From contig NZ_CP091056.1 of NCBI RefSeq assembly GCF_021535045.1, positions 310,001-374,000 on the forward strand: a DNA stretch of 64,000 nt. Reading direction: 5' to 3'. A model generated the notes under the pieces. That model saw only the letters and a program-made list of their open reading frames with translations. It was not told where the DNA came from and made no database searches. This DNA comes from Ornithinimicrobium sp. INDO-MA30-4. Its GTDB lineage: Bacteria > Actinomycetota > Actinomycetes > Actinomycetales > Dermatophilaceae. Position numbers and translations under genes: made by a program. Shown piece by piece: positions 57,797-64,000 of this stretch. Within the stretch, counting starts at the first letter, position 1; the number at the start of each line of letters is the position of its first letter.

Positions 57797-59537
57797 CTAG
57801 CCCAGGGGCTGTAGAGGTGCTACAGATTCGGCTTGGCTGCGCAGGATGGCAGCGGCCTTGTCGCTGTCCGCGTGAGTTGCGGCTTCTTCGGCCTGAGCGC
57901 GGGAGATGTAGGCATCGACTTCAGCCTGCTTCTTTCCTCGCTCCAGCCCAGCTTGTCGGCGGCAATGTCGGCGATCTCCGGGACTGCCTCCTGGCCTTGG
58001 TGCAGGACCTCATAGACCAGCCGAGTGCGACGGCACATGAGGTCTTCCAGGTGCACAACACCCTCGTGGGTGCAGGCATAGGCAATCTCAGCGCGCAGGT
58101 AAGCGGTGGCGTGCTCCAGTGGCTTGGCCAGTGATGCGTCTTCTTCGATCGACTCCAGCAACTCCTGCATGAGTGAGCCGTAGCGGTGCAGCAGGTGGTC
58201 GACCATCTGGTCACTCCAGCCGTGCTGCTTCTGGATGACCTTCATCTGGCGGCGGATTGCAGCCTCGCCAACGGCCCCCAACAGCGGGATCTCGTCGGTG
58301 ATGCTGGGCAGTTCCTTGGCGCGGTTGCCCAAGGCAAAGTCAACTGCGTCCTTGGCCATAATCCGGTATGTCGTCAACTTGCCGCCGCCGATCACCGTCA
58401 AGCCCGGGATCGGGCTGGCGACGGTGTGCTCACGGCTGACCTTGGCCGAGTTGGTGCCTTCCTTGGTGCCTGGCTGCAGCAGCGGACGCAAGCCCGCATA
58501 CCAACCGATGACGTCATCGCGAGTCAGCTCAGTGTTGAGGACCTCGTTGGCGTGCTCCAGCACGTACTCGATGTCAGACGCGGTGGCGACTGGGTTCTGG
58601 CGGTCCAACTCCCACGCGGTGTCCGTGGTGCCGATCAGCCAATAACGCGACCACGGCACGAAGAAGAGAACTGACTTCTCCGTCTGGATCAGGACGCCCG
58701 AGGTGCCCTTCAAACGCTCACGGGGCACGACAATGTGAATGCCCTTGAAGCCAGCACGTTCAAGCCGCCGTCAGTCTTGGCAAGCGTGCCCACATCGTCG
58801 GTCCACACACCCGTGCAGTTGATGACGTGGTTGACCTTGGCGGTGATCTTGTTGCCGGTCTCCAGGTCCTGCAGGACAGCGCCACTGACTCGGCCAGCAG
58901 CATCCTTGAGGATCTCGACGACCTGGGTGCGGGTGGCAGCCTTGGCGCCATAGGACACGGCAGTGCGCACAATCGTGGCGACCAGGCGGGCGTCATCCAC
59001 GGTGGCGTCGTAGTACTCGACGGCGCCGATCGCCTGGTCGTGCTTGAGGTCGGGGAACTTCTTCGCCAAGCCCTTGCGGCTGCGGTGCTGGTGGATCGGC
59101 AGAGCCCGGCGTCCCGGCATCAGGTTGGCGAGCGCGTCATACAGGGTCACGCCGGCGCCGTAATAGGCACGCTGCCAGATGCGGTGCTCGAGCGGAATCA
59201 GGAATGGCATCGGCTTCACCAGGTGAGGTGCGATGCGGGTGAGGAGGAGGCCGCGCTCGGTCAATGCCTCGTGGACTAATTTGAAGTCGAGCATCTGCAA
59301 GTAGCGCAGGCCACCGTGAACAAGTTTGGTGGACCACCGCGAAGTGCCTGAGGCCCAGTCTTGAGCGTCAACAACGACCGTGTTCAGGCCACGCGTTGCC
59401 GAGTCGAGTGCGGTTCCGGCGCCGGTGACGCCACCGCCGATCACCAAAACGTCGATGACTGGCCCACCTTCAGCGCTGGCTGAAAGGGCATCTAAGGCTT
59501 CTTGACGGGACTTGGCTGTCAGCGCTTGGGCTTTCAT
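57797..59537 (-). CDS. glpD: Glycerol-3-phosphate dehydrogenase, FAD-dependent (two frame breaks)
   Basis: GlpD oxidises glycerol 3-phosphate to DHAP at the membrane and feeds electrons to quinone. About 580 residues. The FAD motif is VLVIGGGVTGAGTALDSA, with STKLVHGGLRYLQ; later YYDATVDDARLVATI, the second-frame part IHIVVPRERLKGTSGVL and GGGKLTTYRIMAKDAVDF. Breaks lie near 58740 and 57930; the last gives the true end, with stop at 57797. It is the first gene of the glp operon, read from a start with GGAAGG upstream. Confidence 0.92.
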
Positions 59538-60498: not shown

Positions 60499-62527
60499 TC
60501 GTTACTGCCGAGGTGGCGGTGCAAGAAGGCCCACGGCAGGGTATGCCACTGCGCCGTTTGCTCAGCAGTCGAGGCGCCCCCGTGTCCGCCTTCGGTCTGC
60601 TCCCAGTAGGTGACTTCCTTGCCAGCAGTTCGCAGCAACTCGGCCATCTTGCGCGCGTGCCCCGGATGCACCCGGTCGTCCTTGGTGGACGTCGCAAGAT
60701 AGGTCGGGGCGTGTTGTCCTTGGGATTAAAGCGGTGATAGGCGCTATACCCCTCCAAGAACTCCCAGTCCTCAGCGACATCCGGGTCGCCGTATTCAGCC
60801 ACCCACGACGCTCCGGCCAATAGCTTGGTGTAGCGCTGCATATCGAGCAGGGCACCTGACAGACGATGGCGCCGAAGTCGTCTGGGTAGCCGGTGAGCAT
60901 GTTGCCGACCAGCAGGCCGCCATTGGATCGCCCAACGCAGCCCAAATGCTCGACTGAGGTCACCCGCGACTGACCAGGTCGCGCGCCACCGCAGCAAAAT
61001 CGTCGTAGGCTCGGACCCGCTTTTCGCGCAACGCCGACTGGTGCCAGGCAGGTCCAAACTCGCCACCACCGCGAATATTGGCCACGACATAAACACCGCC
61101 GCGCGATAGCCAAGCCAGGCCGGTGATGGCGTCGTAGGCCGGCGTCAAGGGGATCTCGAATCCGCCATACCCGTGCATCACCGTGGGGTTCGACCCATCG
61201 AGGTCCAGGTCTGCGGAGCCGATTTGGAAATAGGGGATACGGGTGCCATCCGCTGAAGTGGCCCAGTGTTGGGTGACTGCCAACCCAGTGGAGTCGAACC
61301 GCGAGGGTCCTTGCTTCAACATCTCGGTGGTTGCCCGGGGGTCAGCGAGATCCAACAAGCCAACCGTCAGGGGCGTGATGAAAGAGGTCGCGTAGACCCA
61401 GACGACATCGCTTTCCCGAGAGTCCACCGGGCCGAGCGTGACGGTGGCGAGATCCTCGACACTGAGCTCAAGGTCCTGGGCCTCCCACACGCCAGTCGAG
61501 GGATTGATCGTGCGGACCTGATGGCGCACATCGTGCAGGACAGTTAAGACGAGGTAGTTCTTCGTCCACGCCCAGCCATCCAAACTGGAGTGCGCATCCG
61601 GGACAAAAACCGCCCGGAAGTCGCGGCTACCAGCCATGAACTGATCGAAGTCGATGACCAGCACGGACCCACTGGGGTGGTCGCGTCGCCGATTTCCCAG
61701 TCGTGACGCAGCAAGATCGTGAGCCATTCGCGGTGCAACGATGACTCAGCCGAATCGGGGATATCGATCAGCCGTTGCTCACCCTCAATAAGCACATATT
61801 GCTGGTGGGTGTAGAAGTCTTTGGCTCGCCAAAAAGTAGTCCGCTCAAATCCGGGCGTGAGGTCGTGGCTGGCCTGAACCAAGAGGTCCTCCGTCTCGCC
61901 CTCAAAGACGATCGGTGCCGCGCTGAGATCGGTGCCGCGCTTCCACTCCCGCACGGTCCGTGGATAGCCAGACGTCGTCATACCGCCTGCTCCGCCATCG
62001 GTGAAGACCAGGGTGGTGTCGGCATCGAGCCAGGTGATCCCGCCCTTGGACTCGGGCCGGACGAAACCATCGGCGGCAAACTCACGGGTCTCCAGATCAA
62101 ACTCACGCGTGACATCAGCATCCGATCCGCCCGGCGACAGCGTGATCAAGACCTTGCGATAGTCGGGGCGCAGCAATCGCGCTCCATGCCAGACCCACGA
62201 TTCCCCTTCGGCGGCGCCCAGCGCGTCCAGATCCAACAAGATGTCCCACTCGACGGCATCACTGCGATAGGAGTCCCAGGTCGTGCGGCGCCACAATCCC
62301 CGCGGGTGCTCCGCATCCGTCCAGAAGCTATAGAGAAAGTCGCCAGCTTGGGCGACGACTGCAAGTCGGTCATCGGCCTGCAAAGCCGCCAAGACGTCTG
62401 CGTGAATGCCAGCAAAGCTGGGCTCGGTCTCAAGGTCCGCCTCGGCCTCGGCGCTGCGGGCCGCTACCCACTCCATCGCGCGCTCGCCGGTCACGTCTTC
62501 CAGCCACAGATTCGGATCGTTGCTCAT
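60495..62527 (-). CDS. Prolyl oligopeptidase family serine peptidase, S9A (about four frame breaks)
   Basis: About 679 residues. The N-terminal beta-propeller begins DPNLWLEDVTGERAMEWV. The C-terminal hydrolase has YGGFEIPLTPAY, GGVYVVANIRGGGEFGP, then the Ser nucleophile in GRSNGGLLVGNMLTGYP (GxSxGG), the Asp in DRVHPGHARKMAEL and the His in EGGHGGAS. Breaks lie near 61683, 60960, 60865 and 60700. It cuts after Pro in short peptides or degrades oligopeptides; no secretion signal is seen, so it is cytoplasmic. Confidence 0.87.
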
Positions 62528-62606
62528 GGCCCTACTTCATCATGTGCAGCCCCGGCAGCGTTGGCCTGCCCAGATTGAGGGTTGCCGAACTGTGCTCTGA
62601 CGATTA

Positions 62607-62624
62607 TCGTTTGGAGCCAAACGA
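62607..62624. promoter_or_regulatory. 18-bp palindromic operator candidate upstream of the Rieske locus
   Basis: TCGTTTGG-AG-CCAAACGA is a perfect inverted repeat of 8 bp with a 2-base spacer, 23 bp before the ferredoxin-reductase start. A well-placed palindrome of this kind usually marks a repressor site. The core TTGG-AG-CCAA resembles, from memory, the Caulobacter vanillate operator TTGGATCCAA bound by GntR-type VanR. No regulator gene is visible in the window. Confidence 0.6.
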
Positions 62625-62646: not shown

Positions 62647-63612
62647 ATGGCTACACAGACGGTGGTCCGAGAGGCCGAAGTGCAAGTCAACGTCGTCGAC
62701 GTCGTGAAAGAGGCGGACGGGGTTGTCTCACTGCACTTGGCAGCACAGGACGGCGAAAGCTTGCCGCCATGGACGCCTGGAGCACACATTGACTTGGTGA
62801 TGGGCGATGGTCTCATCCGGCAATACTCACTGTGCGGATCGGCGACCGAGTCCAAGACCTATCGCATCGGCATTCTGCTGAGCCCCGAGAGCAGGGGCGG
62901 CTCACAATTCGTGCACGACAACCTGCACGAGGGCGCGTCGCTGACGGTGCGTGGCCCTCGCAACCACTTTTCCTTCGCCGCATCTGCTAAATACCTGTTC
63001 ATCGCTGGCGGCATTGGCATCACGCCCATGTTGCCGATGATTGCGGAGGCCGAGGAGGCCGGGCGCGATTGGGAACTCTTCTACGGGGGTCGCTCTCGAG
63101 ACTCAATGGCCTTTCTGGATGAACTGGCCGCTTACGGCGACCGAGTCACGGTCGTTCCTCAGGACGAGGCTGGCCACTTAGATCTGCCAGAGATCCTGCG
63201 CGAGCCTCGCCCGAATACCTTGGTCTATGGGTGTGGCCCGGAGGGCATGCTCAACGCGCTGGAAGAGCAGTGCGGGCACTGGCCCTCCGGCAGTCTGCAC
63301 CTTGAGCGGTTCACCGCCAAGGAGCAAGATGCTGACGCCACCGACACTGCCTTTGAGTTGGTGCTAGAGCGCTCTGGGCAAACCTTGCAGGTGGGAGCCG
63401 ACCAAAGCGTCTTCGAAGTCGTTCGTGAGGCTGGGGTGAGTGTCTTGGGCTCTTGCCTGGAAGGCATCTGCGGAACCTGCGAGACCGAGGTCATCTCCGG
63501 CGATCTGGATCACCGCGACTCAGTGCTCGACCCCGAAGAGCGTGAATCCGGCGAAGTGATGATGATTTGTGTCTCTCGCTGCCGTTCCGCCCGACTCACC
63601 CTCGATTTGTAG
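62647..63612 (+). CDS. Ferredoxin reductase-type oxygenase reductase (VanB-like)
   Basis: About 321 residues, unbroken. Three modules in order: FAD/FMN barrel (GAHIDLVMGDGLIRQYSLCGS), NAD-binding (FIAGGIGITPMLPMIAEA, YGCGPEGMLNALEE) and a C-terminal plant-type [2Fe-2S] ferredoxin with Cys in CLEGICGTCETE and a fourth in MMICVSRC. This is the phthalate dioxygenase reductase / VanB type that passes electrons from NADH to a Rieske oxygenase, whose gene follows by 19 bp. A strong ribosome site (GGAGG) lies before ATG 62647, and the palindrome at 62607 is just upstream. Confidence 0.87.
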   Translation: MATQTVVREAEVQVNVVDVVKEADGVVSLHLAAQDGESLPPWTPGAHIDLVMGDGLIRQYSLCGSATESKTYRIGILLSPESRGGSQFVHDNLHEGASLTVRGPRNHFSFAASAKYLFIAGGIGITPMLPMIAEAEEAGRDWELFYGGRSRDSMAFLDELAAYGDRVTVVPQDEAGHLDLPEILREPRPNTLVYGCGPEGMLNALEEQCGHWPSGSLHLERFTAKEQDADATDTAFELVLERSGQTLQVGADQSVFEVVREAGVSVLGSCLEGICGTCETEVISGDLDHRDSVLDPEERESGEVMMICVSRCRSARLTLDL

Positions 63613-63631: not shown

Positions 63632-64000
63632 ATGAGCACTAGAGAAGGCACCCGCAGCACTTTCCCCCGCAATGCTTGGTATGCGTTGGCCACCAGCGAG
63701 GACGTCGGACGTATGCCCGTGGCCCGCCGCTTGATTGACCAACCCATTCTCCTCACCCGCAAGACCTCTGGCGCCGCGGTCGCTCTGCGCGATCGTTGCG
63801 TCAATCTGCCGTTCCCGCTCAGCCGGGGAACCGTCACCGGCGACACCATCGTCGATGGCTACTCGGGTTTCACCTATTCCTTGGACGGGGCTGTCATCGC
63901 CGTTCCCACCCAGGCTGAGGTGCCCTATGACGCGAAGGTCCAGAGTTTCCCGGTGCACGAGAGCGGGGGATTGATCTATGTCTGGATTGGCGACCCAGCG
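63632..64000 (+). CDS. VanA-like Rieske oxygenase subunit with degenerate cluster site, 5' part only
   Basis: The first 123 residues, cut by the right edge. The sequence PRNAWYALATSEDV and IPTQ-like VPTQAEVPYD and LIYVWIGDP align with the N-terminus of vanillate O-demethylase oxygenases. The Rieske site, normally C-P-H-R then C-x-x-H, reads C56-V-N58 and D75-G-Y-S78, so only one of four ligands (C56) is left. The frame is clear through this region and no base change would restore the ligands. The catalytic iron domain would lie beyond the window. It is 19 bp after the reductase, in the same unit. Confidence 0.75.
   Translation, partial: MSTREGTRSTFPRNAWYALATSEDVGRMPVARRLIDQPILLTRKTSGAAVALRDRCVNLPFPLSRGTVTGDTIVDGYSGFTYSLDGAVIAVPTQAEVPYDAKVQSFPVHESGGLIYVWIGDPA

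Follow-up and report, generated by a model that had tools for sequence, protein, structure and literature searches.

What becomes of a Rieske oxygenase that has lost the residues holding its metals? The question is raised by a VanA-like gene that begins at the right-hand end of the window, the 64,000-nucleotide stretch of Ornithinimicrobium DNA analyzed here, just behind a gene for a VanB-like reductase. The features concerned are the following:

62607..62624, no strand assigned: perfect palindrome TCGTTTGG-AG-CCAAACGA (inverted-repeat scan)
62647..63612, + strand: VanB/PFOR-type reductase with flavin, NAD and C-terminal plant-type 2Fe-2S parts (domain matches, solved relatives)
63632..64000, + strand: VanA-like protein, N-terminal 123 of its 341 residues (Rieske fold; C56, N58, D75, S78)
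63797..63805, + strand: first Rieske motif, C-V-N (canonical C-x-H; translation, alignment)
63854..63865, + strand: second Rieske motif, D-G-Y-S (canonical C-x2-H; translation, alignment)

The VanA-like gene is an open frame of 341 codons that runs past the end of the window (L001:1501-2523), its coding part ending outside at the position equal to 64654. The product has the domain order of a Rieske oxygenase, a Rieske domain (Pfam PF00355, E 1.4e-10 to 9.2e-10) followed by a VanA_C-type catalytic domain (PF19112, E 6.8e-25 with the full protein), and its best match among solved structures is dicamba O-demethylase DdmC (3gb4, E 1e-21). Overall sequence, the order PF00355 + PF19112 and a VanB-type reductase next door are what it shares with DdmC and VanA; it differs from them in being situated in P450 gene clusters and in having kept just one of the four ligands at the Rieske site and one of the three at the mononuclear iron. 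Where DdmC and all 33 canonical homologues have the cluster ligands C-x-H...C-x2-H (CHCH), the translation of 63632-64000 reads ...RDRC56-V-N58...D75-G-Y-S78-GF..., that is, C-x-N...D-x2-S, with TGC (63797), AAT (63803), GAT (63854) and TCG (63863) as the codons of the ligand positions. The Rieske ligand loss reported in the first-pass annotation is confirmed by this comparison. One of the ways out that the annotation offered, direct reduction of the mononuclear iron by the reductase, is unlikely because the triad is lost as well: in the C-terminal half, reached by extending the contig to the right of the window, the 2-His-1-Asp site is broken, with H166 its only remaining ligand, Ala in place of H171 and Val in place of D297 (the bridging Asp, D163, is still present). 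The protein is a Rieske oxygenase by fold and descent, not by ligands, and its ligand losses suggest that it binds no metal.

Could the losses simply be error or decay? Three ligands have disappeared together, and some other genes of the window assembly are split into several frames and are whole in O. laminariae, yet a decaying pseudogene or a sequencing artefact is scarcely credible as an explanation. The independent genome of Ornithinimicrobium laminariae Arc0846-15 (L026), from the same genus group as the window genome, encodes a protein 98% identical to the window's with the same ligand residues, and sequencing error and indels are therefore excluded; the original judgment that the frame is intact was sound. 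Internal stops are absent from all listed homologue matches. The two Ornithinimicrobium copies of the gene differ at 59 synonymous and 6 nonsynonymous positions, a dN/dS of 0.027 (by a simple counting method), to be set beside values for the same genome pair of 0.031 for the reductase, 0.029 for the LigB-like gene, 0.009 for the P450, 0.017 for the glutamine synthetase (GS)-like gene and 0.008 for FAH. Three further pairs from the clade show the VanA-like gene somewhat above its reductase (0.197/0.123, 0.390/0.326 and 0.142/0.128), and the one canonical VanA pair gives 0.098; dS is high in some pairs. The VanA-like gene is under purifying selection: at a dN/dS of 0.027 and with an open frame, it shows neither the relaxed selection nor the broken frame of a pseudogene.

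The split genes of the window assembly are those for an FAD-dependent oxidoreductase of the DAO family (which we label glycerol-3-phosphate-dehydrogenase-like) and a prolyl oligopeptidase, lying in overlapping frames at 57820-59537 and 60960-62527 on the minus strand. In O. laminariae they are single ORFs of 620 and 678 aa, so the window assembly probably carries indel errors.

Together with 46 other distinct actinobacterial proteins, all from the window's class, the VanA-like protein makes up a clade. The underlying searches, whose sets overlap, took in 97 relatives and, at E <= 1e-60, the order (396 genomes) and the class (394); at E <= 1e-85 they took in four families (301, 17, 149 and 186 genomes) and the phylum (296), where the window genome was the sole match. 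Plasmid records were also searched, and coverage of other phyla is confined to these and one close-relative scan; the one scan made for viral relatives returned none. Ligand positions were compared on an alignment of 80 distinct homologues (the 47 clade members and 33 others). In the tree, built with the ligand columns omitted, the 47 form a single group (SH-aLRT 97) with a canonical Paraburkholderia protein (L094) next outside; this tree and those that follow are quick searches with SH-aLRT as their only support measure.

Ligand states vary across this clade in a graded manner. The 33 relatives outside it are uniformly CHCH at the Rieske site, and the iron triad is intact in 32 of them. In the outer subgroups (n=30) the Rieske site is likewise CHCH in 29 and CHSH in one; the iron site is altered throughout, N160 having become His in 30/30 and H166 surviving in only 2/30, while H171 is kept in 26/30 and D297 in 30/30. 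A shifted iron triad that uses H160 is accordingly a possible reading of the outer alignment columns. Two outer members, L047 and L111, have the extra His at 160 beside an intact His/His/Asp triad. In subgroup D, the 17 proteins that include the window's, H171 is lost in 17/17, D297 is Val or Met in 17/17 and H166 is lost in 7/17 (position 171 is Asp in six members and Arg in one); the Rieske site takes the forms CNDS (2), CHSS (1), CHAT (4), DHSS (1), CHST (1), CHDH (1) and CHCC (7). Of the 47 clade rows, only those of the two Ornithinimicrobium genomes show precisely the C/N/D/S set, and their relatives have other substitutions: the conserved subfamily anticipated from the window alone exists, but not as bearers of that particular set. 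Because the H171 and D297 losses are common to all of D and the Rieske changes vary within it, the iron site probably went before the Rieske site, an order that depends on parsimony, with the branching among subgroups partly open. Six residues, F161, W236, D238, F254, Y293 and Y294, are invariant in 16/16 D rows and present in 0/24 canonical rows. Conversion of the iron Asp ligand to Tyr was considered and rejected: the aligned Asp column is 297, and Y293-Y294 are adjoining D-specific residues.

The CHCC members of D (L007, L042-L045, L124 and L128), proteins without the iron triad, have a Rieske site of the form C-x-H...C-x2-C, a candidate and possible three-Cys one-His cluster site.

A normal oxygenase elsewhere in the genome had been proposed as something to look for; at E <= 0.001 neither the window genome (75% complete) nor O. 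laminariae (99% complete) yields another VanA-like gene. The reductase gene is complete; its start is taken as the ATG at 62647 (a longer frame opens at 62542). It ends 19 nt before the VanA-like gene and, as noted at first reading, retains the Cys residues of its C-terminal ferredoxin domain (CLEGICGTC...C; Fer2, E 5.9e-12). Among solved chains it matches best the reductase portions of 6kbh (E 3.7e-85) and 6laa (E 2.8e-77), two P450 chains which we take to be CYP116B enzymes; phthalate dioxygenase reductase (2pia, E 1.2e-59) comes next. By itself this likeness is no proof of a P450 target, because identity to the window's reductase reaches 59% among those encoded beside canonical VanA genes. 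A VanB-like reductase adjoins the VanA-like gene in 47/47 clade rows, and in a reductase tree (56 rows: 43 clade, 13 canonical) the five subgroups known from the VanA-like proteins come out again, each set apart by a single branch; the arrangement inside D differs somewhat (L072).

The third partner is a cytochrome P450. In the window genome its gene (best solved match CYP125MRCA, 8vxi) adjoins the VanA-like gene on the opposite strand; the two are convergent here and in several D relatives, and elsewhere all three genes run in the same direction. Of 46 testable clade rows, 41 have a P450 in the vicinity, vs 2 of 19 canonical VanA loci; since the rows are related, Fisher's p of 2e-9 is a guide only, and the flank surveyed on either side ranges between about 1.5 and 10 kb. 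By subgroup the counts are 15/16 for D (in L041 the P450 is on a separate contig; L131, at a contig end, was left out), 12/12 for a subgroup with a gene fusion, 7/11 for the other C rows, 5/5 for B and 2/2 for A, with one A call (L111) a partial 27% match; in L093 an aldehyde dehydrogenase gene stands between P450 and reductase. The canonical loci (19 of the 33 were taken, with ~6 kb on each side) gave a P450 match in 2 and a VanB match in 13. The fusion, in an outer subgroup, places P450 and reductase in one reading frame in 12/12 rows, although in 9/12 only the C-terminal part of the P450 falls within the locus; a Tsukamurella record carries the annotation 'cytochrome P450/oxidoreductase', and the end of this gene overlaps the VanA-like gene. 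Self-sufficient P450s with a PFOR-type reductase (6kbh, 6laa) have the same flavin/2Fe-2S reductase type and are paralleled by this fusion; the window genome differs from them in that its P450 and reductase are separate, unfused genes on opposite strands, accompanied by a third, VanA-like gene. Taken with its neighborhood, the window reductase probably serves the P450, and electron flow from reductase to P450 is likely in the window organism.

How tightly the three are bound together can be judged from the P450s. In a P450 tree of 32 rows, 14 D P450s make up one group, including the detached copy of G488, a genome in which the P450 is on a different contig from the reductase + VanA-like pair; the P450s of other subgroups are distant, on long branches. 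Because of that distance, the stable unit, as far as the trees tell, is the reductase + VanA-like pair, combined with different P450s, and not the trio. Conversely, D-type P450s (E <= 1e-80) occur in 6 of 149 order genomes sampled, and 3 of the 6 are without a VanA-like match (G039 at E <= 0.001; G107 and G150 at E <= 1e-60). G039 has a P450 76% identical to the window's and, ~4 kb from it, a reductase 53% identical; near the P450s of G107 and G150 (57-58% identical) such a reductase was not found within the 20 kb inspected. The P450 clusters of these three genomes (L167, L168, L169), which lend themselves to comparison, are otherwise similar, with GS-like and ADC genes in 3/3 and LigB in 2/3. 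Four outer members (L108, L114, L116, L120) have the reductase + VanA-like pair, and no P450 was found within ~6 kb of it. Since related P450s occur without the VanA-like protein and pairs occur without a nearby P450, the VanA-like protein is probably an accessory and not an absolute need.

We favor, with confidence a little better than even, the reading that the VanA-like protein is an accessory or adaptor in a reductase-P450 system. A two-component VanA/VanB Rieske oxygenase would have been its ancestor and would have become tied to P450 gene clusters. Electrons from NAD(P)H would pass to the flavin of the VanB-like reductase, thence to its plant-type 2Fe-2S domain and on to the P450; the VanA-like protein, no longer binding a Rieske cluster or a catalytic iron, would be retained as an accessory subunit, docking on the reductase that was its ancestral partner and either presenting it to the P450 or stabilizing it. 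The residue losses, the purifying selection, co-inheritance with the reductase, the P450 neighborhood and the fusion in a sister subgroup constitute the computed support. The suggestion that the protein might have a different job was, it seems, right; of what had been read from the window at the outset, the ligand loss, the frame and the subfamily also stand, and what finds no support is direct reduction of the mononuclear iron. A fuller history, in which a Rieske oxygenase lineage was captured by P450 clusters, was stripped of metal stepwise (the iron site changing first, the Rieske cluster then being lost in several ways) and persisted under selection, without metal, as the adaptor of a reductase + VanA-like module paired with different P450s, is put forward tentatively.

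Partly overlapping with the adaptor reading is the proposal that the CHCC members of D and the CHCH outer members still hold a 2Fe-2S cluster, through which electrons would be relayed from the reductase to the P450, a function lost in the window lineage. The possible three-Cys/one-His ligand set in 7/17 D members and CHCH in 29/30 outer members, all beside a reductase and most near P450s, are in its favor; in the 12 fused members, however, the reductase is already attached to the P450, so that a separate shuttle is not obviously needed, and we regard the proposal as possible but somewhat doubtful. Rather unlikely, though deserving of attention, is a new non-redox job in the pathway, such as binding, converting or sensing a substrate or intermediate, with the shared cluster reflecting only the joint inheritance of reductase and oxygenase genes. 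The D-specific invariant residues of the C-terminal half (161, 236, 238, 254, 293, 294), the related P450s that do without a VanA-like protein and the location of the G488 P450 elsewhere would all fit; reductase adjacency in 47/47 rows and matching trees are hard to explain without a role in electron delivery. We consider it improbable that the protein continues to work as an oxygenase, taking electrons straight from the reductase into an atypical metal site. H166 and D163 remain in the window protein, six D members offer Asp at position 171 (one has Arg), and the shifted outer triad (N160 to His in 30/30, H166 lost in 28/30, D297 kept in 30/30) could hold iron, but in D the facial triad is absent at the aligned positions: D297 is replaced by Val or Met and H171 lost in all 17, H166 in 7 of them as well.

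NirD, a small, single-domain nitrite reductase subunit of the Rieske fold, is said to lack cluster ligands, and would then set a precedent for a Rieske fold that has no cluster and is retained as a partner subunit, although the enzyme it partners is an unrelated one. Among the matches listed in the open-licence PubMed Central literature on Rieske proteins in connection with P450s, redox partners or pseudoenzymes, none was seen to describe a metal-free Rieske-type partner of a P450. A review, in the text covered, states that a self-sufficient Rieske oxygenase had not been identified, and makes no mention there of a case like the VanA-like protein (PMC12445004). Riboflavin catabolism was set aside as a parallel: according to the part of the account consulted, its P450 has its own electron-transfer domains and its Rieske enzyme is a four-component dioxygenase (PMC12746152). 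If the adaptor reading is true, a Rieske oxygenase has turned into a partner without metal in a P450 system, and extant proteins still mark the stages, from canonical forms by way of altered-iron and Cys3His ones to those that have no cluster. The annotations 'aromatic ring-hydroxylating dioxygenase subunit alpha' and 'Rieske 2Fe-2S domain-containing protein' (e.g., in Tsukamurella and Mycobacterium paragordonae) may then in some cases stand for something other than an ordinary oxygenase, and an accessory not yet explored would become available for P450-reductase biocatalysts.

The genes around the trio hint at the pathway. In O. laminariae and the window genome the cluster contains a glutamine-synthetase-type gene, a PuuC-like aldehyde dehydrogenase, a Peptidase_C26 gene (PuuD-like in our own labeling), MarR, an amino-acid permease, an acetoacetate-decarboxylase-family gene (checked whole in O. 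laminariae) and HpaD-, HpaE- and HpaG-like genes, these names being guides only because none reaches the NCBIfam curated cut-off. Such a gene set suggests amine catabolism via gamma-glutamylation, with a P450 step, and also suggests meta ring cleavage of the homoprotocatechuate type within the amine pathway. PipA/MorA-type catabolic P450s, for piperidine and morpholine, offer a likeness: glutamine synthetase genes lie near related P450s in Gulosibacter, with a reductase nearby, although MorA uses a ferredoxin and a ferredoxin reductase (PMC9477822). The terms Rieske, ring-hydroxylating and VanB are absent from that paper's main text (PMC9477822). A catabolic cluster at L002:9020-17719 comprises GS-like, Peptidase_C26, two aldehyde dehydrogenase, FAH, LigB, permease and MarR genes.

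The palindromic operator said to precede the reductase and VanA-like genes proves to be a perfect inverted repeat, ending 22 nt before the reductase start. Within the cluster of the window genome, imperfect copies lie near the start of the GS-like gene (2-3 mismatches) and before the permease (1 and 4 mismatches); the three other matches in the window itself are at chance level (2.35 expected). Eight outer loci gave two weak matches, both within coding stretches. Each of the other D loci scanned has matches with <=4 mismatches, mostly above shuffled expectation, and this distribution suggests that the palindrome-linked genes form one regulon.
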